A DNA stretch of 56,123 bases from Bacteroidia bacterium (lineage in GTDB: Bacteria > Bacteroidota > Bacteroidia > UKL13-3), in the NCBI GenBank assembly GCA_020049855.1, contig JAGVLJ010000007.1:1-56123 (forward strand). Direction: 5' to 3'. Numbering within the stretch: position 1 is the stretch's first letter; each line of letters begins with the position of its first letter. Shown one piece after another: positions 12,834-31,675 of the stretch. Under the pieces are notes generated by a model. That model was given only the letters and a program-made list of their open reading frames with translations. It did no database searches and was not told the DNA's origin. The translations under genes and the position numbers were made by a program.

Positions 12834-14711
12834 TTATTTCTTGAGCAGCGTGTTCGCATTTATCCGCTGATAGTAATTTTGAATATAAGCCTTCAGTTTT
12901 TTTTCAGCTTGTAATTTCTCTTCGGTCGGCCACTCATTCACTAAATTATGGCGCAACAATGAATCCGTTTGCAGGTTGTACACTGCACTGGTTTTATTTC
13001 CGTCAAAATGCAACACCATATTCCCGCTGATGTACTGATACAATCCGTTTTCATACTGAACGGCAAAATGAGGCATCGAATCAGTGAATGCCGATACCCC
13101 AAAAGCCGGAAATGAATCTTTATACCCCAGATACTGCAACAACGTTGGCTCAATATCACAGTGACTAAAGGTAGTTTTTATTGACCTTTGGGTTGTTGCT
13201 GAGGGGTCGAACAAAAGTGCCGGTATCTTAAATTTACCGGCCATGGTTTGGTAAAATGGTTGCTCATTTTGTGCCGAATGGTCGGCAGTAATAAAAAAAA
13301 CGGTTTGAGCATACCAAGGCATACGGGATGCCTGAGAAAAAAATTCACGTAAGCAAACATCGGTATAAGCAATGCTTTGATGAATAGCGAGTGTTCCTTT
13401 GGGTAAAAACTTATATCCGGCCGGAATGGCATACGGATGATGAGAAGAGAGTGTGAATACTGCTGCGCAAAACGGCTCGCTTGTATTGGTAAGCCGAGTG
13501 TTTACATAGCGTAAGTATGGACCGTCATCAATTCCCCAGGGCCCGGTTTTATCTTTTGACACATAACCGGAATACTCATTAAGACCATAGTAAGTTCCAA
13601 AAGAAGAAACCCCTATAAAACCATCGAATCCCATAGTGCCGTTTTTTGCTCCATGATAAAATGCAGTTGCGTATCCTTCTTGTTTTAACAATTTTCCAAT
13701 ACCCGTTAATGCATTTGATTGATAAGGGGAATTAATAAATGGGGTTTCAAGCAGAGAAGGAAGTGCTGACAAAATAGCCGGCAGTGCCTCAATCGATTTT
13801 TTTCCGCTGGCATACGCATCGGTAAATACTATACTGTGCTTACTGAGGGAGTCAAGAAAAGGAGTAAATCGAGAATCGCCATTGCAATATCCTACATATT
13901 CTTTCCCGAAACTTTCAAGTATTAAAATCACTATATTTTTTTTTCGAAATGCAGGGGAAAGATACTTTCTGTACACAGGATATATCTTCTCTGATTGATT
14001 TAGTTCAAAATAAGCAGGAACAGCTACGGGTTTATTTCCCACCATACTTATTAACTGAAAAGGCGTATTTACCGTAAGAGGAATTAACTCGGCCATAACA
14101 AACCGTCCCGCATCAAACGGACGAATGGGTTTAAGGTAAAAACCACCACGTGCAGCAAGTACCCAACAGGCGGCTGACAAAAAAAAGAGAACCCCGTGTT
14201 GAAGGTACTGTTTAACTGAATATTTTTGTACCGATACCGTGTATCCCTTAGGATAAAATCGCCACATAGCTGCGACAAAAACCAGGAAAATAAGCACCAG
14301 ATACCAGTAATCGGAAAGGTATTGTGCAAGAAGGTTGCCTATTTCATTATCCGTTTGCAACAGCTCAAGCCCGCTGCGTTTACCCGAAAATTTGATGTAT
14401 TCCACATCAATCAGATTCAATAACAAAGCCGCCCCATTAGTAAGCACAAAAATAACTTTGATTGTTTTTTGATACAGATTATTTGCGCGCTGGTAAACGG
14501 GTATAATGCAAAGCAAAAAGAATAAAATGTTTACGTAGGCAATGGCCGAAATGTCAAACAATAACCCGTAAAAAAAGGTATTGATTATTCTAAAAAAACC
14601 GAACCGCGCATATGTTTCGGCATTGAAAAGAAAAAACAATAGCCGCGCAAGAGCAAAAAACAAAAGTGCATACCCAAGGCGGCTAAGTAAATTCCGGATA
14701 TGTGCCAGCAT
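12834..14711 (-). CDS. LTA synthase family (sulfatase-fold) phosphotransferase
   Basis: 625 residues: about five transmembrane helices in the first 210, then an extracytoplasmic alkaline phosphatase/sulfatase-fold domain. Key residues align with LtaS: Glu 266 in ILESFG, the probable nucleophile Ser 306 in GKKSIEA, and Asp 477-His 478 in ITADHS. Family members move phosphoglycerol or phosphoethanolamine from a phospholipid to a glycan or lipid on the outer face of the membrane. A Gram-negative bacterium has no lipoteichoic acid, so the acceptor here must be something else. Five bases after the GH3-type gene; the last gene of the three-gene cluster. Confidence 0.88.
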   Translation of the reverse strand: MLAHIRNLLSRLGYALLFFALARLLFFLFNAETYARFGFFRIINTFFYGLLFDISAIAYVNILFFLLCIIPVYQRANNLYQKTIKVIFVLTNGAALLLNLIDVEYIKFSGKRSGLELLQTDNEIGNLLAQYLSDYWYLVLIFLVFVAAMWRFYPKGYTVSVQKYSVKQYLQHGVLFFLSAACWVLAARGGFYLKPIRPFDAGRFVMAELIPLTVNTPFQLISMVGNKPVAVPAYFELNQSEKIYPVYRKYLSPAFRKKNIVILILESFGKEYVGYCNGDSRFTPFLDSLSKHSIVFTDAYASGKKSIEALPAILSALPSLLETPFINSPYQSNALTGIGKLLKQEGYATAFYHGAKNGTMGFDGFIGVSSFGTYYGLNEYSGYVSKDKTGPWGIDDGPYLRYVNTRLTNTSEPFCAAVFTLSSHHPYAIPAGYKFLPKGTLAIHQSIAYTDVCLREFFSQASRMPWYAQTVFFITADHSAQNEQPFYQTMAGKFKIPALLFDPSATTQRSIKTTFSHCDIEPTLLQYLGYKDSFPAFGVSAFTDSMPHFAVQYENGLYQYISGNMVLHFDGNKTSAVYNLQTDSLLRHNLVNEWPTEEKLQAEKKLKAYIQNYYQRINANTLLKK

Positions 14712-14716
14712 ATAAA

Positions 14717-16246
14717 TTAGTTTTTGTTAGCAAAATGAGCCAATACATGCGATTTCCACTCCTCACAAACCGAATTTTTTATAACCCGTGGAAATTTATT
14801 TTGTCCGCCCTCTTTGCCTCTAATGCGCATAAAATCTAAGAACACCGCTGACGGGAGTACGTCTACCACTACTTCTTTAAGCGCATGTTTTCGTTCAATT
14901 GCATAGTCATCATTCAACTCCTTCAGCAATTCATCGAGGCGTTGTTTTACAATACTTGTATCTACAGGAGCATCGCATGCCAAATACCAATGGTGAGAAA
15001 ATAATCCTGCAAACGCCTCTCCGCAAACCGTAAATTCATTAATGGGCTGATTTATCTCTGAGGCAAGTTTTGCCACAGCATGATTCATATTATCAACCGA
15101 CAAATGCTCTCCGCACATACTTAAAAAATGTTTGGTGCGGCCGGTTATTTTAATTTCAAAATTTTTCTTGTTTACAAACCGAATAGTATCGCCAATCATA
15201 TACCTCCATGCTCCTGCACAGGTGCTGATAAGCAAGGCATATTCTTCCTCCTCCTTTATTTCATTCAGCCAAACAACCTCATGCCCTTCTTTCAGCTCGC
15301 CTTCATCAGTAAAGTTACGTTGGTTAAACGGAATAAATTCATAAAAAATTCCATTCTTCAGTAATAGTTTCATCCCGTCAGCTTCGTCTCTTGTTTGCAA
15401 GGCAATAAATCCTTCGGACGCAAGGTAAGTTTCGAAAAAATACACCTTTTTTGAGAACAGATTATCCAAACTTTTTCGGTAAGGGTCAATGGCAACTCCA
15501 CCGTGTATGTACACCCGAAGGTTAGGCCACAAATCATGAATACTTTTAAGGTTATACTTTTCAATAATCTGTTCAAAAATAATTTGTACCCAAGCAGGTA
15601 CACCTGCCACCATTCCCACATCCCAATTTGGTGCTTCGTTTACAATCTCCGTAATTTTTTCCTGCCAGTTTCGTTTCTTGCGAATTTCCATGTCGGGCTT
15701 TGAAAATGGCTCAAACCAAAACGGAACATTCCCGGTAGTAATGCCGCTTAAATCGCCCGAATAGTTAATCCCGTTAAAATTTAAATCAGTGCTTCCCCCT
15801 ATCATCAATGAATGCTTAGCTACGGTTTCGGCAGGAACATTTTTGCAACGGGCAATATGCCATATTTGCCTGAGGCTTGATCGAATCAAAGCCTTTTTCA
15901 TTTCAAGTGATACAGGAATATATTTGCTCGCCTGATCGGTGGTTCCAGAGCTTAAAGCAAAGAATGGAATTTTGCCGGGCCAGCATACTGACTTTTCTCC
16001 GTCAAAACTGCGCTGCCACCACCTTTTGATGCTTAAGTAATTATGTACTGGAATTTTTTGCTGAAAGGCTTTAACCAGTTCATCGCTATTTAACACTCCA
16101 ATAAAATCATATTCGCGGCCAAATGAAGTATTATGTGCCTTGGCAAGTAACTTCCGAAGAACCCTCAATTGCTGATTTTCAGCACGGTTTCCTCTGCTTG
16201 TCATGGGTAATATCCGTTTGGTTACTAGTGACTGAATGATGTTCAT
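14717..16246 (-). CDS. GH3-family acyl-adenylating (auxin-responsive promoter family) protein
   Basis: 509 residues, close to the plant GH3 length. All three ANL nucleotide-binding motifs are visible: SSGTT at residues 99-103, YLASEGF near 275, and TGRTKHFLSMCGEHLS at about 366-381. Plant GH3 enzymes adenylate a carboxylic acid and transfer it to an amino acid; bacterial homologues are common in Bacteroidota but their substrates are unknown. No signal peptide, so it is cytoplasmic. It lies between two LtaS-like genes, 84 bases after one and five before the other, which implies a joint job in building or decorating an envelope component (inference). Confidence 0.9.
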   Translation of the reverse strand: MNIIQSLVTKRILPMTSRGNRAENQQLRVLRKLLAKAHNTSFGREYDFIGVLNSDELVKAFQQKIPVHNYLSIKRWWQRSFDGEKSVCWPGKIPFFALSSGTTDQASKYIPVSLEMKKALIRSSLRQIWHIARCKNVPAETVAKHSLMIGGSTDLNFNGINYSGDLSGITTGNVPFWFEPFSKPDMEIRKKRNWQEKITEIVNEAPNWDVGMVAGVPAWVQIIFEQIIEKYNLKSIHDLWPNLRVYIHGGVAIDPYRKSLDNLFSKKVYFFETYLASEGFIALQTRDEADGMKLLLKNGIFYEFIPFNQRNFTDEGELKEGHEVVWLNEIKEEEEYALLISTCAGAWRYMIGDTIRFVNKKNFEIKITGRTKHFLSMCGEHLSVDNMNHAVAKLASEINQPINEFTVCGEAFAGLFSHHWYLACDAPVDTSIVKQRLDELLKELNDDYAIERKHALKEVVVDVLPSAVFLDFMRIRGKEGGQNKFPRVIKNSVCEEWKSHVLAHFANKN

Positions 16247-16330
16247 TTACCCCCCTGTTTCAGAAAAAAAATTTACGCAAGATAACCAAAATGAGTAAAT
16301 CGGAAAGCTTAAGTTGCTACGGGTTGCCCT

Positions 16331-18625
16331 TCATCGGTTTGTAGCATACACCGCTGCTTTTACCTGCAATTTATAATCAGTTAGTTTTTCATTGGTTAAG
16401 TAGCACTTAAATAATATTAAGCTATCACTGGTTAAAACGGGTGCTATTTTTTGATGGTAGCGAAATGTTTTTTTGCCGGCTTCTATTCCAAAAGAGACCC
16501 ACAGCAACAAGCTGTCTTTTGAATTGGTAAGCTGATACACTCCATGAAGAGGCACTTTAGCCGATTGATCAAAAATACCAAACAAATCGAACACGAGATC
16601 TTTTGGCGAAACTTTGGTTTTAGGAATGGCTTCATAATACCCGCCCGAAAAAACCACAGGATTCATTGAGATAGACCGATACACCTGATACCCTAACGAA
16701 GAAAAATATATTGAATCGGGCAACAAGTGCTGACCCATGGTAGCCCATGTATTTGCCCGCCTGAAGGCTTCGAGTTGTTGCTGCATCTTTTCTATCTGAG
16801 GTTTATTCACTTCGGCTTTAAGGTTAAATTTTTCATCCACCCGGTATAGCTCGTCTGCAGTGAGGTAATAATTTCCATCATAAATATCAACAATATCCCG
16901 ATTTCCATTCATAAATACAACTGGTTTTCTATTAATAAAATAAGTAGTTGTATCGAGCGAATTGCTTACCGTTGACTGCATAGGTGGAATATGCAATTGA
17001 TATGCTTTGCGCAACCAAACCAATAAAGGTTCATATACATCCAAGTGGCTTCCTACACTATGAAACAGATGGGGTGCTTTGAGCAATGGAGAATAAATGA
17101 CTAACGGAACATGATACCGCTTTAAACTGTTACTTGCCGGAATATCAGTCATCGGGTGATCACCTGTGATTATAAATATTGTATTCTCAAAATCAACCAA
17201 CTTGCTGTAGGCGGTTATGTACTCTTTAATCGCATCATCAGTAAACATCACGGATCTAAGGTATTTCCCATACTTTAATTCAAATTCCGATTGTTCTTTG
17301 TTTTTTTTAAGAACCTGTTGCACTAACCGTTTTTGATAAGTTTCTTCCTCCTGAATGGTAAAGGGATTGTGCATACTTCCGGTAAAGAAAATATCCAATA
17401 GCGGACGCTTCTGCTGCATAATGGTAAGATTCATAGCTTTACGCATTAAACTCCGGTCGTCATATCCCCAAAAAAAGTTGTCCTTGCCTTTTACCACAAT
17501 ACGGGGGTATTTGTTATCGAATTTTTCTTTGTCAGTGATGCGATTTATAAAATTTTGCTCGTAAAACACATTCTTATTATGAAACCATGCCCCTTGCCCA
17601 TAGTAAAATGATGTAAAGTACCCGTTTTGTTTTAATACATTTACTAATGAAAAATGATAGGGCATGCTCTCGAGCATGGTAAATCCGCTGCGACCGTATG
17701 GAAGTGAAGCTATAAGCGAAGGTGTAACTGCATAAGAGCGCTCCCCAAGCGAAAGAAAATGATCCCAATACAACGACCGATTCTTCAGGCTGTCGAGAAA
17801 AGGCATAAGTTGAAGTCCATGATACGAATGCAAAAAATCATCAGCCAAGCCCTCCACTATAAGTACAACAATATTTGGTGGTTTGTGACCACGGTTAAAC
17901 CAGGTGCTTAACACATCCTGCTGCGAAGTTTCATGTAAAAAAGGATATTCACTTCCTATATAGCTCATCCCGCCAAAAGCACTCCGGTACTGCTGCACAA
18001 TATGCCGATAATCCAATTCAGGACGCGCTTCCTTTTCCCTTAAAAACCGATAAGCAGATTGATAAAAATAGATAGGTTTATTTAGCACAAACCGCGCACC
18101 GTTTTCAGCGGGAGAAAAAAAAGTAAGGCTAAAAATTCCGGATAATAACATCAATAGCATAATCCTGTTCAACCATTTGGTTGCTTTCCCATTCAGTAAA
18201 TAAGCAGCCCCGGAAACCATAGATGCCAGCAACAAAAAAACAATAATCTGAACGTAATTTACCTCTGTGGTTCTAATGGTAAAAAAAACCTCCTGTTTTG
18301 TATGTTCAAATAAAAATTTATCAAGTGGCTGAAGCTGGTAAATAAAATACTGAAGAATAAGAACAGCCGTAAAAAAATAAAGTAAAAAAAACGAGAGCGA
18401 AACAATAACGGATAATCGGCTAAACCACTTTTGAAGCAACAAATACATCAACAATCCACAGGTAAGCAGCGGTGTAAGAAAAACAGTATCCTGCAATAGA
18501 CCCATCAACTCATACGTAGTCAAAGAAAGACTCGGATGAAACCGTGAAAGCATCACATACTCGTAGGCGCGCAGGCTAACCAGCAACGTGAAAAAAAAGC
18601 GGATAAGCCGCATTGACTGATTCAT
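16331..18625 (-). CDS. LTA synthase family (sulfatase-fold) protein, long form
   Basis: 764 residues: about five transmembrane helices to residue 190, a sulfatase-fold catalytic domain, and about 200 extra C-terminal residues absent from the 625-residue paralogue. Metal and catalytic residues match LtaS: Glu 258 in LIVEGL, probable nucleophile Ser 297 in GERSYAV, Asp 489-His 490 in ITGDHP. The C-terminal extension is beta-rich and could bind the acceptor. It is first in the minus-strand cluster with the GH3-type gene. Expected to transfer a phospholipid head group outside the inner membrane; a hydrolase role is the alternative. Confidence 0.86.
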   Translation of the reverse strand: MNQSMRLIRFFFTLLVSLRAYEYVMLSRFHPSLSLTTYELMGLLQDTVFLTPLLTCGLLMYLLLQKWFSRLSVIVSLSFFLLYFFTAVLILQYFIYQLQPLDKFLFEHTKQEVFFTIRTTEVNYVQIIVFLLLASMVSGAAYLLNGKATKWLNRIMLLMLLSGIFSLTFFSPAENGARFVLNKPIYFYQSAYRFLREKEARPELDYRHIVQQYRSAFGGMSYIGSEYPFLHETSQQDVLSTWFNRGHKPPNIVVLIVEGLADDFLHSYHGLQLMPFLDSLKNRSLYWDHFLSLGERSYAVTPSLIASLPYGRSGFTMLESMPYHFSLVNVLKQNGYFTSFYYGQGAWFHNKNVFYEQNFINRITDKEKFDNKYPRIVVKGKDNFFWGYDDRSLMRKAMNLTIMQQKRPLLDIFFTGSMHNPFTIQEEETYQKRLVQQVLKKNKEQSEFELKYGKYLRSVMFTDDAIKEYITAYSKLVDFENTIFIITGDHPMTDIPASNSLKRYHVPLVIYSPLLKAPHLFHSVGSHLDVYEPLLVWLRKAYQLHIPPMQSTVSNSLDTTTYFINRKPVVFMNGNRDIVDIYDGNYYLTADELYRVDEKFNLKAEVNKPQIEKMQQQLEAFRRANTWATMGQHLLPDSIYFSSLGYQVYRSISMNPVVFSGGYYEAIPKTKVSPKDLVFDLFGIFDQSAKVPLHGVYQLTNSKDSLLLWVSFGIEAGKKTFRYHQKIAPVLTSDSLILFKCYLTNEKLTDYKLQVKAAVYATNR

Positions 18626-18668
18626 ATACGCCAGCTAAATTACGGAAATATTTGCTTGCAAGAGTAAG

Positions 18669-18766
18669 GTTTATATTTGGTTGAGATGCCAGGTGCTTAA
18701 TCCCCATTTTTGACAATCAAGGCATTAGATTTGACAACACGTAGCACCTGAAAGGGTTTATATTTG
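18669..18766 (+). promoter_or_regulatory. Promoter region with repeated TATATTTG box and dyad
   Basis: TATATTTG at 18759-18766 fits TAnnTTTG and lies 19 bases before the ATG at 18785; a TTTG at 18730-18733 could be the -33 element, though the spacing is long. A second GGTTTATATTTG copy lies near 18669. Between them CAGGTGC (18690-18696) and GCACCTG (18744-18750) form an inverted repeat, a possible regulator site between the divergent genes. Confidence 0.4.
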
Positions 18767-18784
18767 TAACTTTGACGATTAACC

Positions 18785-19171
18785 ATGAGCGAAACAAATA
18801 CCATACTTCCGGAACCGGAAACCATTGATCAGGTTACGAAAGAGAAATATATTTTAATTACGTTTACCCTAAAAAAACAATTCGGAAAAAAACCCGATTT
18901 GAATGGAATAATTTTTTTAATAGGCATGCAGGAACTGGGGCAGGTAAGAGAGTTCAGCAAAGAAGAAAAAATTGACCTGATGCATATTGCCACCTGCAAG
19001 CTCCTTAGCTACCAAGGGTATTATTCATTTGCCGGACGCGATGCCGATGGCTGGCCGAAATGGAACCTCGAAAAACCCCTGCCTCCGTATGATTTGTTCA
19101 GTCAGGAAGTATTGCTGAAAAAAAATATTGTCCGTTATTTTGAAGAGGAAAATTTACCCATGCAACCATGA
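18785..19171 (+). CDS. Conserved hypothetical protein
   Basis: 128 residues, no signal peptide or membrane helix. The body has KPDLNGIIFLIGMQELGQV and a C-terminal YYSFAGRDADGWPKWNLEKP followed by a proline pair. It appears to be one compact alpha/beta domain that I cannot name. Its stop overlaps the ATG of the downstream cyclophilin gene (ATGA, 19168-19171), so the two are translationally coupled. It opens a run of plus-strand genes that reaches MenB. Confidence 0.75.
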   Translation: MSETNTILPEPETIDQVTKEKYILITFTLKKQFGKKPDLNGIIFLIGMQELGQVREFSKEEKIDLMHIATCKLLSYQGYYSFAGRDADGWPKWNLEKPLPPYDLFSQEVLLKKNIVRYFEEENLPMQP

Positions 19172-25045: not shown

Positions 25046-25063
25046 TTGGAAACTTGCTATCTC

Positions 25064-28048
25064 ATGACAACTAAAGATTCAGCATACAAGAAAATTTCGG
25101 AACTGGTGGAGCGGTTCACTGAGCAGTTTGACAGTTATAAACGGGCAGACTACAATGAAACCTTGACAAGGCGCGACTTTATTGACCCTTTTTTCAAAGC
25201 TCTTGGTTGGGATATTGACAACGAAAACGGATATGCTGAAAGCTACCGTGAAGTAATTCATGAGGACAGAGTGAAAATCGGCAAGGCGACTAAGGCCCCT
25301 GATTATTCTTTTCGTTTGGTTGGTGGCAAGCGATTGTTTTTTGTGGAAGCAAAAAAACCAAATGTTGCAGTTAAGGACGAAATTCAACCTGCTTACCAAG
25401 TGCGCAGATACGGTTGGAGCGCAAAACTTCCTGTAAGTATTATCACAGACTTTGAAGAATTTGCGATTTACGACTGCACCAAGAAACCCAATCCTACTGA
25501 CAAGGCATCCGTTGCGAGAATCAAGTATTTAACTTTTAAAGACTACTTAGACGAGTTCGATTTCATTTGGGACACTTTCAGCAAGGAGAAAGTGCTCAAA
25601 GGCAGTTTTGATAAATTTGTTCAGGGCAATCTCCACAAAAAAGGAACCGCAACAGTTGACAAAGAATTTCTGCAATCGCTTGACAATTGGAGAACTTACC
25701 TGGCAACCTCTATCAGCCGCAACAACAAACATCTTGACGAAGACGAAATCAACTTTGCCGTTCAGCAAACAATTGACAGGATTATTTTCCTTCGAATTGC
25801 AGAAGACAGAGGCATTGAACCTTACGGAACTTTAAAGAACGTTATCAAAAGCGGAGACTATTATCAGAATCTTTTCCGACAGTTTCAGCAAGCCGATGAC
25901 AAATACAATTCGGGTTTGTTTGATTTCAAGAAAGACAAAATCAGTAAATCGCTCACGATTGAAAACAAGATTGTAAAAACGATTATCAACGAACTATATT
26001 ATCCTGAAAGTCCTTACGAGTTTTCGGTTTTGTCGGTAGAAATTTTGGGCAGTGCTTACGAACAGTTCTTAGGAAAAGTCATTCGCATAACGCCAGGACA
26101 CATTGCAAAGGTTGAGGAGAAACCCGAAGTGCGTAAAGCGGGTGGCGTGTATTATACACCGCAATATGTGGTTGACTACATCGTGAGAAACACTTTAGGA
26201 AAACTGATTGAAAACAAAACACCTAAAGAGATAAGCAAAATAAAAATAGTTGACCCTGCCTGCGGCAGTGGCAGCTTTCTTATCGGTGCTTATCAGTATT
26301 TGCTTGACTGGCACAAAAACTTTTACAGCGAAAACGGCAAGCCGTCAAAAGGAAAGAAAGACAATCCGCTTACACCCGAAGGCAACCTGACCACAGCCGA
26401 GAAGAAAAGAATCTTGCTTAACAACATTTTCGGAGTTGACATTGATGTAAACGCAGTTGAAGTAACCAAGTTGAGTTTGCTTCTGAAATGTATGGAAGGA
26501 GAAACCGAAGCGAGCATTGCAAGTCAGATGAAACTTTTTCACGAAAGAGTTTTGCCAACGCTTGACGAGAATATCAAAAGCGGAAATAGTTTGGTGGATA
26601 TTGATTTTTACTCAGGCGAACTTGATTTCGGTACTGAAAGAAAGGTGAAGCCATTTAATTGGAAAAAGGCGTTCCCGGAAGTGTTTAATCTAAAACGACC
26701 ATCGGAAAACCTTGACTTTAAAAAACATTATCAAAAAGTGAAGAAACTTTCAGATGATACTGATGATTTACTAAACAAGTATTCAGTAAGCGAGCCAGAA
26801 GTAGCTTATAGCTCAGTCGGTGGATTTGATATTGTTATTGGGAATCCGCCATATGGGGCACTATTATCTGACAGCGAAACTGCCTATTTCAAGAATCGTT
26901 ATCAGACAGCCGTTTGGCGCGTTGAGAGCTATTTGTTGTTTATTGAACAAGGTTTGAAGCTGCTAAAAAATAACGGTCATCTAGGCTACATTATTCCCGA
27001 TACACTACTTAATCTAAGTTTCACACAACCAACAAGAGAATTGCTTTTACGTAACTCTAAAATCAATGAAATAATAGGATTACCTTCTAATGTTTTTTCA
27101 GGGGCAACAGTTGATACAATTATTCTAACAACAGAAAAAGCAGAGTTTAAAAATACATTTCACGCTTCAGGCGTGTGTGTGAAAACATTTGGGAAAAAGC
27201 AAAGTATCAATTCTATTGATAATCCACAGAAAGAGTTTATTGTAAAAACGAAAGATTGGTTTGAACAAAATGCGTTCAACCTGCAAATTGACAATTCCGA
27301 GAAGCAACTTTTAAGCAAAGTTGAAAAGCCGAAGAAAACTGTAAATGATATTGGGGAAATGTATTCAGGGATAAAGGCATATGAAGTTGGGAAAGGCAAA
27401 CCCGCTCAAACAGAAAAAATACGTGATAATAAGCCATACACATCCGAAATAAAAACAGATAAGACTTGGAAGCCATTCTACGATGGCAAAAACATTGGCA
27501 GATACGAATTGCTTTGGAAAGAGAATAATTGGATTAAGTATGGTGAGTGGCTTGCAGCGCCACGACAACCAGAAAACTTTGAAGGCGAAAAAATTCTAAT
27601 TAGAAAAATAACAGGCAAAACGCTAATAGCTACATACATCCCTGAAACATCCTATTGCAACACCCTGCTTTTTGTATTGAAGATAAAAAATAAGCAGTAT
27701 TCATACAAAAGCGTGCTAGCATTGCTCAACTCAACGCTTATCGGATGGTATTTCAGAAAGAAGTTTCAAATTAGCGATGATGATACTTTCCCGCAAATAA
27801 TGATAAGGGATATATTACAATTTCCCGTTCCAGAAATTTCTTCAAAATTTGCAACAGAATTAGAAAAACTTGTTGACCTACTATTGAAACTGATTGCTGA
27901 AAAAGCGGAAGCAAAACTTGAAAGCAAAATCAATCAACTACAAGGTAAAATTGATTACTGTGAGGACAGAATAAATCAGATTGTATATCAACTTTATAAT
28001 TTGACAGACGAAGAAATTAAAATGGTGGAGGGGAAATGGATCTGTTGA
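25064..28048 (+). CDS. Type IIG restriction-modification enzyme (Eco57I-like fusion)
   Basis: 994 residues from ATG 25064 (a TTG at 25046 would add six). One polypeptide holds a PD-(D/E)xK-type nuclease (Asp 80 in APDYSF; Glu 95 and Lys 97 in VEAKKP), a helical linker, and a gamma-class N6-adenine methyltransferase (motif I DPACGSGSF at about 397; catalytic NPPY at about 594). The C-terminal third resembles a target-recognition domain with a coiled-coil end. Such enzymes both cut and methylate DNA and need no separate subunit. The last residues after VEGK seem to come from the gene it interrupted. The context and the truncated neighbour suggest horizontal acquisition. Confidence 0.9.
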   Translation: MTTKDSAYKKISELVERFTEQFDSYKRADYNETLTRRDFIDPFFKALGWDIDNENGYAESYREVIHEDRVKIGKATKAPDYSFRLVGGKRLFFVEAKKPNVAVKDEIQPAYQVRRYGWSAKLPVSIITDFEEFAIYDCTKKPNPTDKASVARIKYLTFKDYLDEFDFIWDTFSKEKVLKGSFDKFVQGNLHKKGTATVDKEFLQSLDNWRTYLATSISRNNKHLDEDEINFAVQQTIDRIIFLRIAEDRGIEPYGTLKNVIKSGDYYQNLFRQFQQADDKYNSGLFDFKKDKISKSLTIENKIVKTIINELYYPESPYEFSVLSVEILGSAYEQFLGKVIRITPGHIAKVEEKPEVRKAGGVYYTPQYVVDYIVRNTLGKLIENKTPKEISKIKIVDPACGSGSFLIGAYQYLLDWHKNFYSENGKPSKGKKDNPLTPEGNLTTAEKKRILLNNIFGVDIDVNAVEVTKLSLLLKCMEGETEASIASQMKLFHERVLPTLDENIKSGNSLVDIDFYSGELDFGTERKVKPFNWKKAFPEVFNLKRPSENLDFKKHYQKVKKLSDDTDDLLNKYSVSEPEVAYSSVGGFDIVIGNPPYGALLSDSETAYFKNRYQTAVWRVESYLLFIEQGLKLLKNNGHLGYIIPDTLLNLSFTQPTRELLLRNSKINEIIGLPSNVFSGATVDTIILTTEKAEFKNTFHASGVCVKTFGKKQSINSIDNPQKEFIVKTKDWFEQNAFNLQIDNSEKQLLSKVEKPKKTVNDIGEMYSGIKAYEVGKGKPAQTEKIRDNKPYTSEIKTDKTWKPFYDGKNIGRYELLWKENNWIKYGEWLAAPRQPENFEGEKILIRKITGKTLIATYIPETSYCNTLLFVLKIKNKQYSYKSVLALLNSTLIGWYFRKKFQISDDDTFPQIMIRDILQFPVPEISSKFATELEKLVDLLLKLIAEKAEAKLESKINQLQGKIDYCEDRINQIVYQLYNLTDEEIKMVEGKWIC

Positions 28049-28321
28049 AGTAGTTGGATCTGTATATCCCGAACCTGTGTAATCAATTTCTGCAAAAATT
28101 ACCAGAATTCGGAATGTGCCTGATGTAGGCAATGCTCCACCATATTCACTGTTCATGGTTGATAAAGTTTGATTTCCTGCAGGCACCATCGTTACATCGT
28201 TCAGACATTCGCCTCCATAATAGATGGGCGGACCTGATTGAGCAAAAGCTGTTTTAAACATAGTGCATAAAACAATAATAAGCGAAGACACAACATGTTT
28301 AGTACTTAATAATTTTTTCAT
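28034..28321 (-). pseudogene. 5' fragment of a secreted protein gene, truncated by the restriction gene
   Basis: Starts at ATG 28321 with a clear signal peptide (ending TAFAQ) and continues GGECLNDVTMVPAGNQTLS, then GTFRILVIFAEIDYTGSGYT to TDPTTSTDPF. After about 28034 the frame runs antisense through the restriction gene and makes no sense. RILVIFAEIDYT resembles the start of some secreted metallopeptidase domains, but too little remains to name it. Its start overlaps the stop of the upstream minus-strand gene by 23 bases, so it was once the second gene of that pair. No 3' half is found beyond the restriction gene. Confidence 0.65.
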
Positions 28322-29133
28322 AATAAGATTGATTGGTTTGTGAATTAGTTATTTTTAATATATACATCCCCTGAGCCAAATTTGTTAGTTCTAAAGAAAC
28401 ACCAAGTGTTTTATTTTCTTTATGAAAAACAGTCACTCCGTTTGACATGGAAATAATTTCAATCTGATTAAATCCTGCTAGGCTATGTATGTGCAAATAG
28501 TCCCTGAATGGTTTGGGATATACAATAGGTTGTGTTTTATTTATTAGCCCAACATTAAGTGGAGGTTCGTCATTAAAAGAAAAGCTCATTACAAAATGTC
28601 TGGCAGGTTGCCCCTGAATGGTAAAAGGGGGCAATACAACCGAGTCCATTTCCCTGAGATTAAATGGCACCCCACCTAACCTGTAGAATAAAGTGTAAGT
28701 ATTTCCCAATTCAGCTTTGAGAATATGATACGAAAGACTGGGAGAGGTAAACAAACTCTTATCCCACCTCACGACCATTGGATAATTGTCATTCAAGGCA
28801 TTAATTTCATACCCCCCCCCCTGTATTCTTTTCAGGCCAAGCCCAAACCTTGGTGGAATCACTACCTGCTCCACCAGCAAAAAATACCTGAAACTTAGCC
28901 GTGTCGGGCGTTATTTTGTACTCCCCCAAAAGGGAATCTGGTTGTTCGGTAGCCGTGCTGTCGAACACAATATATACCGTGTCCTTTTGTCCATCAGCAT
29001 TTTCAAAGGCCAACCAAAATTTCCACTGGGGTTCTTTGGCAAATACCACTGATTGGGCAGAAGCTGCTTTGAACATGGCAAAACAGGCAATGACAGTGAT
29101 TAATAAGCTATGTTTATTTTTCATAAAACGCAT
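28299..29133 (-). pseudogene. Secreted T9SS protein split by a poly-G frameshift
   Basis: The first frame starts at ATG 29133 (or 29124), with signal peptide MKNKHSLLITVIACFAMFKA ending AASAQ, and runs to WPEKNTGGG. The second frame continues GGGYEINALNDNYP and ends in a sorting-domain-like tail (NGVTVFHKENKTLG, then GMYILKITNSQ) at 28299. They meet in a run of ten G on the coding strand (28812-28821). Removing one G gives a single 277-residue protein. The tract could be a phase-variation switch, a real disabling mutation or a sequencing error. Function unknown; exported through Sec and probably the type IX system. Confidence 0.7.
28812..28821 (-). repeat. Poly-G tract (G10) inside a secreted-protein gene
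   Basis: Ten consecutive C on the plus strand, G on the coding strand. It lies exactly where the reading frame of the secreted protein breaks; nine would restore it. The length is in the range known for slipped-strand contingency loci. Confidence 0.7.
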
Positions 29134-29636: not shown

Positions 29637-31373
29637 TTAATGCTGTATCAGTATATTACCCGAACCCATTACCTGCGTTCCGTTTACTACACGGTAAGCA
29701 TAAAAACCGGCTGGTATTCCTTCGGTGTTGATGGTATTGTTTCCGGTTGATTTTAATTCAATGGTTTTTCCGGTTAGATCAATAAGTAACAAGCCCGGAT
29801 TTTGTACACCTTCAACGGCCAGGTGCAAATAGTTGCTGGCAGGATTTGGGTACACACTCACCTTTACCCCTGCATTTGTTGAAACAGGTTTTATCCCAAC
29901 GGTATTATCTCCCAGTTTCCATAACTCCATACCATGGGTATCATCGCTGGCGGTGAAATAAAGTACCGCCCCTGCTTTTACAAACTGATTGGTGCTATTG
30001 GCATTTATAAATCCCGGATTGGTTCCCGGATTAATATCCCAATACGAAACGGAGTCGTTGGCCGGATTCAATACATACAATTCGTTTCCATGAGTTGAAT
30101 CATCTGCCTCAAAATAAAGTTTGCCGTTAAAGGCAGTAAAACTGAAAAATGAATTGTACACGTTTTGAGTAACGGGTATTTGGCTTACCTGCACCGTGCC
30201 GTTAGCGGTTAAATCGGTTTTCCATATTTGAATCCGTTGCGAGGGTTCGTTGGCTGTAAAGTAAAGCTTGTTATTTAAGGTTGTAAAATTATACGGACCC
30301 GAACCATAGCCACCTACACCCACCGCAATATTTTTTAATAAGGTAGTAGTTGATGAACCATTCAATAGGGTGTCTGTCATATATAATTCACCACCGGTAG
30401 TATCAGCCGGACCTTTGGCATAAGGAATTCCGCCAAACACCATATTCCCTCCCGAAAATCCGTAGCCACTCAACTTGTAAACGGAGAAACTTTTGGGTGC
30501 CGCATTATTTACAATTTTGTACACCGTTGATAAATCAGACCCCGGAGTAATAAAGTCGGCAACGGTAATATATAAGGTGCCATTATACAACTGATAAGCA
30601 TATCCGCTGTAGGACGAAGCGGAAGTAGAAGTTAATACCACTGTTCCGAATTGATAAGGTTGTGTACCGACAGTTGTTCCGTTGCTTTCGTACAATACAT
30701 AACGAGTAGATGAACCCGACCACACGCGTGCAGCAAAAAATAGTTTGCCGTATGCTTCAACAAAACCGGTCGGGTCGCTGTCGGTATTAAACCCCATATT
30801 TCCTGGATTGATATCAATAAGCATTTGCGTGCCGGCAAGGGTGCCATCACTCACCCACAATTCTTTTCCTTTGTTGTTAACAATGGAGCCGATATAATAA
30901 TCAGCTGCGTTAAAGTAAAGTTTATCCTTATAAACTACTAATTGCCTTAAGCGGTCCATGGGGTTACCTGCCGTGCCGGGAACCGAAATGGATTTGAACT
31001 TACGTAATAAAGTCGGAGTAGTACTGGTGTGGGTAAAGGTATATAGGCCCATCGTATCGTAGTTGATTGACATGACGAAGAAAATTTTACCCGAAGCTTT
31101 CAGAAAACCAAAAGGGCGATCCGTCCAGTTGGCACTCAGGTTAGCAAAACTAAACATACGCAGGGTTCCGGCATTCGTTCCATCCGTACGCCAGATGGCC
31201 GTATCATCCTCATTGATAAAATACAAGTACTGATCCACCGGATAAAACTCGTTGGTGTACAAATTGGTGGGATTGATGCCTGGAGTAATGTCTTTCACCA
31301 TCACCGGGTTCTGGGCATACGCACAAAGCAACATGGCCCACAACGCAATAAATAAGGTAGTTGTTTTTTTCAT
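29637..31373 (-). CDS. Secreted ELWxxDGT-repeat protein with T9SS sorting domain
   Basis: About 578 residues from ATG 31373 (signal peptide MKKTTTLFIALWAMLLCAYA). Several repeats match the ELWxxDGT family: AIWRTDGTNAGT, ELWVSDGTLAGTQ with DINPGN, then ELYVLNP with DINPGTNPG, and MELWKLGDN. Each would form a blade of a beta-propeller-like surface structure. The C-terminal 75 residues (VYPNPASNYLHLAV, then GFYAYRVVNGTQVMG) are a type A sorting domain, so it leaves by the type IX system. A TTG at 31391 could extend it by six residues. Role unknown, perhaps surface binding. Strong terminator downstream. Confidence 0.88.
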   Translation of the reverse strand: MKKTTTLFIALWAMLLCAYAQNPVMVKDITPGINPTNLYTNEFYPVDQYLYFINEDDTAIWRTDGTNAGTLRMFSFANLSANWTDRPFGFLKASGKIFFVMSINYDTMGLYTFTHTSTTPTLLRKFKSISVPGTAGNPMDRLRQLVVYKDKLYFNAADYYIGSIVNNKGKELWVSDGTLAGTQMLIDINPGNMGFNTDSDPTGFVEAYGKLFFAARVWSGSSTRYVLYESNGTTVGTQPYQFGTVVLTSTSASSYSGYAYQLYNGTLYITVADFITPGSDLSTVYKIVNNAAPKSFSVYKLSGYGFSGGNMVFGGIPYAKGPADTTGGELYMTDTLLNGSSTTTLLKNIAVGVGGYGSGPYNFTTLNNKLYFTANEPSQRIQIWKTDLTANGTVQVSQIPVTQNVYNSFFSFTAFNGKLYFEADDSTHGNELYVLNPANDSVSYWDINPGTNPGFINANSTNQFVKAGAVLYFTASDDTHGMELWKLGDNTVGIKPVSTNAGVKVSVYPNPASNYLHLAVEGVQNPGLLLIDLTGKTIELKSTGNNTINTEGIPAGFYAYRVVNGTQVMGSGNILIQH

Positions 31374-31675
31374 GCTGAAATTTTTTAGCAACCTAAAAAA
31401 GGATGAAAAAAAATTCCATCACATGAAATGCGTATTTGATTAATTAAAGGAATTTAATTTACTGTTTCCTTTGCTGGCTTTGCGCCTTCTGATCAATCGT
31501 AAAAGGTTAGGCGTATTTTTCCCGCATAATTCGCAGAATAGCTCAGAAATGCTTTATCGTGTTGGGAGATGCTATAGCTGACACAAAAGAAAACACATAC
31601 CTTATAACAAATTCTGATTAGAAATTAGGGGAAACCTTGTACTTGCACCAGCTTTAGAAAACATACAGGACAAGT

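Follow-up and report, generated by a model that had tools for sequence, protein, structure and literature searches.

The window analysed here is a stretch of 56,123 nucleotides from Bacteroidia bacterium (lineage UKL13-3; assembly GCA_020049855.1, contig JAGVLJ010000007.1). Three adjacent genes on its minus strand encode GH3-III, a GH3-type enzyme, and two LtaS/OpgB-like proteins, LtaA and LtaB. We judge it somewhat more probable than the contrary that GH3-III is an N-acyl-amino-acid synthetase that substitutes for OlsF and that it lies beside two head-group transferases with separate acceptors, the locus being a genus-specific operon of three envelope-lipid enzymes with no dedicated trio elsewhere. 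Gene content, motifs, gene neighbours, distribution and the mutual exclusion of GH3-III and OlsF were observed, and substrates, acceptors, transport direction and co-transcription are inferred. The features of the locus are as follows.

16331..18625, minus strand: LtaB (name used here), LtaS/OpgB-like phosphotransferase with a membrane-spanning N-terminus, 764 amino acids (PF00884); first gene of the putative operon
14717..16246, minus strand: GH3-III, GH3-type ATP-dependent acyl acid-amido synthetase, Bacteroidota subfamily III, 509 amino acids (PF03321/PF23571/PF23572)
12834..14711, minus strand: LtaA (name used here), LtaS/OpgB-like phosphotransferase with a membrane-spanning N-terminus, 625 amino acids (PF00884)
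18626..18784, minus strand: intergenic putative promoter region between the operon start and the divergent gene at 18785

Reciprocal distribution of GH3-III and OlsF

The distribution of GH3-III and OlsF was compared in 396 genomes of the class. GH3-III was counted at E<=1e-170, well separated from its paralogues at E>=1e-135, and OlsF-type proteins were counted in the same genomes at PF13444 E<=1e-17, their identity as OlsF being checked on two examples (PF19576 plus PF13444, with NF052615 as best match). The counts, transcribed by hand from two tables, showed that 198 genomes carry GH3-III only, 108 carry OlsF only, 7 carry both and 83 carry neither (Fisher p 1e-34). Because relatedness among genomes inflates the Fisher test, we stratified the counts by family. 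In the six families that vary in both genes, 8.9 co-occurrences were expected and 0 were observed (z -6), and in two families (f39 and f19) the OlsF carrier is the genome without GH3-III. The remaining GH3 paralogues do not mark genomes in this way: 393 of the 396, among them OlsF-positive genomes, contain at least one GH3 match. Most simply, GH3-III would perform the N-acylation step that OlsF performs elsewhere.

OlsF, GlsB and OlsB are PF13444 N-acyltransferases whose product class, N-acyl amino acids, is the one proposed for GH3-III. They are unrelated to it in sequence and work by GNAT-type acyl transfer, whereas GH3-III would use ATP-dependent adenylation; OlsF also O-acylates. No PF13444 protein was found in the window's genus, which hence has no OlsB, GlsB or OlsF.

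GH3-III is related to, but distinct from, OlsH

Pfam recognised the GH3 N, M and C domains in GH3-III (E 2e-32, 1e-15 and 4e-8), and the nucleotide-binding motifs SSGTTDQASK (99), YLASEG (274) and GAWRYMIGD (345) are all intact, which places the protein in the GH3 acyl acid-amido synthetase superfamily. Its PDB sequence matches were JAR1/GH3 proteins, and its predicted model (predicted local distance difference test score, pLDDT, 85) gave JAR1 (4epl) as the best fold match with E 2.5e-23. Although plant GH3 enzymes (JAR1/GH3.11 and GH3.12) are thus its best structural matches, identity to them is about 16-18%, and the plant enzymes work on hormones and related acids.

The nearest named family is OlsH (NF052613). 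OlsH is the lyso-ornithine lipid synthetase of planctomycetes, a proven ATP-dependent N-acyl-ornithine synthetase described in 2025 from Singulisphaera acidiphila (Sinac_1599; PMC12493201). GH3-III shares with it the GH3 fold, the same three nucleotide motifs and homology along almost all of the protein (E 6.5e-99). It scored 331.8 bits (331.2 in the genome search) against a curated cut-off of 620, which rules out plain OlsH identity. Two more GH3 paralogues of the window genome score higher against OlsH (427 and 389 bits), and in a phylogenetic tree GH3-III forms its own clade, apart from both. The gene context also differs: all planctomycete homologues lie in an operon of OlsH and OlsI, an alpha/beta hydrolase, joined by OlsG in S. 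acidiphila (PMC12493201), whereas GH3-III, a separate Bacteroidota subfamily, has no adjacent OlsG- or OlsI-type gene and is flanked by sulfatase-fold proteins in the window and by LysE elsewhere. A different GH3 paralogue of the window genome overlaps a methyltransferase gene (L217:8527-9600, contig C29), an arrangement that recalls the planctomycete OlsH-OlsG pairing.

Of more than 7500 OlsH homologues, about 90% are from Bacteroidota, and the paper that counted them thought GH3-like ornithine-lipid synthesis unlikely in the phylum since OlsF and OlsB do it (PMC12493201). Motifs, fold and the OlsH precedent make it very probable that GH3-III is a cytosolic enzyme that activates a carboxylic acid and links it with an amino acid. 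An initial annotation of the window had likewise placed acid activation by the GH3 protein inside the cell, and that proposal gains support; its account of GH3 as known for conjugation in plants needs widening, since a lipid role for a bacterial GH3 protein has been demonstrated with OlsH (PMC12493201). In the mechanism that we propose, GH3-III would activate a free carboxylic acid, fatty or otherwise, at the expense of ATP and couple it with an amino acid; formation of the resulting N-acyl amino acid (a lyso-amino-lipid) would be the initial step towards amino lipids. It would thus be the Bacteroidota counterpart of OlsH and would replace the OlsF N-acyl-transfer step in OlsF-free genomes.

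GH3-III is commonly paired with a LysE-type translocator

A gene for a LysE-type translocator (PF01810) lies directly downstream of GH3-III on the same strand at 48 of the 75 loci where the sequence extends far enough to show it, and the two genes often overlap or lie within 16 bases of each other. Nine further loci (Spirosomataceae, Spirosoma) carry a convergent LysE gene from a different clade. A single supported clade (100/97) contains every same-strand GH3-linked LysE protein and, in addition, four that are unlinked. The only LysE of the window genome lies outside this clade, which rules out that the partner was merely relocated there. In most Bacteroidota, the dedicated translocator probably carries the product or the substrate across the inner membrane, and the gene would have been lost from the GH3 locus in the window's genus. 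As a two-gene unit, GH3-III plus LysE recurs across Bacteroidota and in one record labelled Chlorobiota (for example L044:7016-9190, L128 and L185).

We found no description of the GH3-III subfamily, its LysE partner or its reciprocal distribution with OlsF in the open-licence PubMed Central literature, which is weak evidence for novelty; a search for the GH3-LysE pair returned only papers on glycoside hydrolase family 3, and no paper was found that joins phosphoglycerol transferase, ceramide and LtaS.

LtaA and LtaB resemble active head-group transferases

Both LtaS-like proteins matched the Pfam Sulfatase domain PF00884 (E 4e-35 for LtaA and 4e-29 for LtaB), and their PDB sequence matches were VP1736 (3lxq) and LtaS/LtaP. 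The catalytic set of LtaA (E266, S306, H424, D477 and H478) is invariant across 30 homologues. In LtaB the set is E258, S297, H419, D489 and H490; nine homologues keep all of these invariant except position 297, which is S or T. The initial annotation had described the LtaS catalytic residues as intact. This holds for the metal ligands and the catalytic histidine but not for the nucleophile, which is serine in both proteins (S306 and S297) and threonine in LtaS. Hydropathy analysis gave five hydrophobic segments in LtaA and only four in LtaB. With a membrane-spanning N-terminus and a catalytic domain that contains Glu, a Ser/Thr nucleophile, His and Asp-His, both proteins fit the LtaS/OpgB-like class. 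The best fold matches for the catalytic domain of the LtaB model were 3lxq, PbgA and LtaP. LtaB also has a C-terminal extension of about 190 residues, where model confidence is mostly about 25-45 and no Pfam match was obtained at E<=1.

Compared with known systems, LtaA and LtaB are divergent members of already known kinds. They share with LtaS/LtaP, the Gram-positive lipoteichoic acid synthase and primase, the membrane-spanning N-terminus and a sulfatase-fold domain with Glu, Asp-His, His and a hydroxyl nucleophile. They differ from LtaS (NF053595) in having Ser rather than Thr, and at 56.4 and 38.3 bits they do not reach its curated cut-off of 970; the family cut-offs and the Gram-negative setting rule out lipoteichoic acid synthesis proper. 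OpgB/MdoB phosphoglycerol transferase I and VP1736 are likewise Gram-negative, and 3lxq is the best match by both sequence and fold, yet LtaA and LtaB score far under the OpgB cut-offs. PbgA/YejM, a non-catalytic lipopolysaccharide regulator, has the same transmembrane and sulfatase-fold layout (6xlp and 6v8q matches), from which the two proteins differ by their intact catalytic residues. Both have the appearance of active enzymes that transfer phospholipid head groups outside the membrane, in line with the role first assigned to them.

Acting outside the inner membrane, LtaA would move a phospholipid head group, phosphoglycerol or phosphoethanolamine, onto a lipid or a glycan, with release of diacylglycerol. 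A YegS-type diacylglycerol kinase gene follows the LtaA-family gene in 6 of 17 genomes examined, from different families (L203, L204, L205, L206, L207 and L209), as expected if LtaA releases diacylglycerol; this adjacency bears only indirectly on such release by the LtaA/LtaB class.

LtaB would carry out the same transfer onto an exopolysaccharide-type acceptor. Its family members in genus g2 lie beside genes for a PgaC/IcaA-like family 2 glycosyltransferase (GT2), a YaiO-type outer-membrane protein, a HEAT protein and a response regulator, and in genome G054 a PgaC/IcaA-like GT2 and an LtaB-type sulfatase-fold phosphotransferase are naturally fused in one protein (1145 amino acids; L212:7037-10474). 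These contexts point to a polysaccharide acceptor; the homologues concerned share about 26-33% identity with the window protein, and their bearing on it is therefore indirect. BcsG-type phosphoethanolamine transferases act on exopolysaccharide, and from general knowledge LtaB can be likened to them in the idea of head-group transfer onto a GT2-made polysaccharide, although no bcs genes were seen at the loci and the partners of LtaB are a PgaC-like GT2 and YaiO. The conserved polysaccharide cluster was not found elsewhere in the window genome, where only weak multi-piece YaiO/TPR matches occurred, on another contig. In genome G005, the full-length match of an LtaB homologue crosses three stop codons (L213:7076-9064), and that gene may be decaying.

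The three-gene arrangement is confined to the window's genus

Open reading frames, Pfam and PDB sequence matches confirmed the arrangement first noticed in the window, with LtaB, 84 bases, GH3-III, 5 bases and LtaA in the order of transcription. This tight spacing suggests a single transcript. No consensus promoter for the operon was identified on the minus strand in 18626..18784, where the sole Bacteroidetes-type match is on the plus strand (18651-18679), and in scans of the window for sigma-70 and Bacteroidetes-type patterns the match numbers were not above chance. Terminator-like sites in the window numbered 11 against 5.7 by chance. The window genome carries about five LtaS-like genes in 2.9 Mb; since two of them flank one gene, their placement is not random.

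This non-random arrangement is common to just one further genome found. Across 58 relatives, and in all 64 genomes of the same family, the three genes lie together only in the window genome and in its congener G002. LtaA adjoins GH3-III in all three genomes of the genus, with LtaA identity down to 56%. In the other congener (G001, L035), the order is GT2, a PMT-type glycosyltransferase, a PhoD-type phosphatase, GH3 and LtaA, so that PhoD occupies the LtaB slot. The three genomes of a second genus of the family (g14) have PhoD ahead of GH3 and LtaA within about 5 kb, several genes off and on the opposite strand. A PhoD-type gene stands directly upstream of GH3-III in four relatives (L035, L036, L039 and L232), a possible link to phosphate. 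At GH3-III loci of named genomes, taken as the 80 best-scoring rather than as a random draw, an LtaS-like gene was present at 0 of 78 (1.31 Mb of DNA). LtaA-family genes are common in genomes with or without GH3-III, and LtaB-family genes are rare. These surveys used simple open reading frame calls at the loci and sampled one family densely and others thinly.

A conserved LtaB-GH3-LtaA system is thus ruled out, as the trio does not recur in other lineages. The initial annotation had envisaged a single new envelope-decoration system and had named a rare joint occurrence of the three genes as a result that would overturn it. The three genes proved to be rarely together (2 of 64 family genomes and 0 of 78 named-genome loci), each having other conserved partners elsewhere, and that view finds no support.

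Weighing of alternative explanations

Several observations weigh against the substitution of OlsF by GH3-III beside two active transferases. GH3-III is the paralogue farthest from OlsH (331 of 620 bits). Its mutual exclusion with OlsF is correlational, with the 83 genomes that carry neither gene, and seven genomes carry both (f52: G201, G308, G338, G352 and G430; f48: G197 and G304). In the window's family, most OlsF-free genomes with GH3-III keep a GlsB-sized PF13444 protein, so that GH3-III is not the sole N-acylation route there. The LtaB model is poor (pLDDT 58), and the same fold has non-catalytic relatives (PbgA/YejM). As a separate observation, the GH3 scores of the seven double carriers (1e-189 to 1e-200) are lower than most, and these proteins perhaps form a distinct subgroup.

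The three genes might be functionally unlinked and share a strand by chance, as the occurrence of the trio in only two genomes and the different partners of each gene elsewhere would allow. The flanking of one gene by two of about five LtaS-like genes argues otherwise, as does the retention of the GH3-LtaA pair in three genomes despite the divergence of LtaA, and we regard a chance neighbourhood as rather unlikely. The opposite possibility, that the genus has one pathway in which the N-acyl amino acid made by GH3-III receives phosphoglycerol or phosphoethanolamine from LtaA, with or without LtaB, outside the membrane to give a phosphoglycerol-bearing amino lipid, appears quite unlikely. The gaps of 5 and 84 bases favour it, as do the adjacency of GH3 and LtaA throughout the genus and their proximity in g14. 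A chemical precedent exists in the glycylserine lipids of Porphyromonas gingivalis, which carry phosphoglycerol, probably on the serine hydroxyl, in a paper that names no gene (PMC10757044). Set against this are the PhoD gene in the LtaB slot of G001, the divergent and distant LtaA of g14, the lack of LtaS-like genes at the 78 other GH3-III loci, and the frequency of LtaA in genomes free of GH3-III. With a similarly low probability, the operon of the genus would make a new amino lipid in which LtaA and LtaB both load phosphoglycerol or phosphoethanolamine, on the outer side of the inner membrane, onto the N-acyl amino acid or onto a glycan carrying it.

Like its plant counterparts, GH3-III might instead conjugate amino acids with small carboxylic acids, either signals or aromatic acids, with LysE exporting the conjugate and no role in membrane lipids. 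Its structural relatives are plant GH3 and PaaK-type enzymes, and LysE-type proteins export small amino-acid-like solutes. This function is fairly improbable in our judgement, for the distribution of GH3-III is reciprocal to that of OlsF, an N-acyl-amino-acid lipid synthase, and in the nearest NCBIfam family the one bacterial protein that has been characterised makes lipids (PMC12493201). A further possibility is lipid remodelling under phosphate limitation, in which LtaA and LtaB would strip head groups to yield diacylglycerol and phosphate while GH3-III provides phosphate-free amino lipids. Ornithine lipids are known phosphate-saving lipids (cf. PMC11129491), and both the PhoD-type phosphodiesterase genes upstream of GH3-III in four relatives and the diacylglycerol kinase genes adjoining LtaA would fit. 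However, the window GH3 gene has no adjacent PhoD, the PhoD link is limited to one family, and no phosphate-response element was seen, no search having been aimed at one; we consider this remodelling quite unlikely as well. The explanation that we retain is a GH3-type synthetase in place of OlsF, beside transferases that would act on separate acceptors.

Other features of the window

Outside the locus, the window encodes a single-chain restriction-modification protein of 1000 amino acids (25046-28048; HSDR_N, Eco57I/N6 methylase and TaqI_C). Adjoining this gene are those for two proteins (28299-28880 and 29637-31391) that carry C-terminal sorting domains of type IX secretion.

Significance

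The recurring GH3-LysE pair makes the translocator a candidate exporter. Should the operon of the window's genus load head groups onto an amino lipid, its genes would be the first for phosphoglycerol-amino lipids of the P. gingivalis kind. In this genus, which lacks OlsB, GlsB and OlsF, no type of N-acyl-amino-acid synthase is known other than the GH3 enzymes. The near-exclusive distribution of GH3-III and OlsF, found independently within six families, leads to the prediction that genomes with GH3-III would make amino lipids without OlsF, by way of GH3-III.

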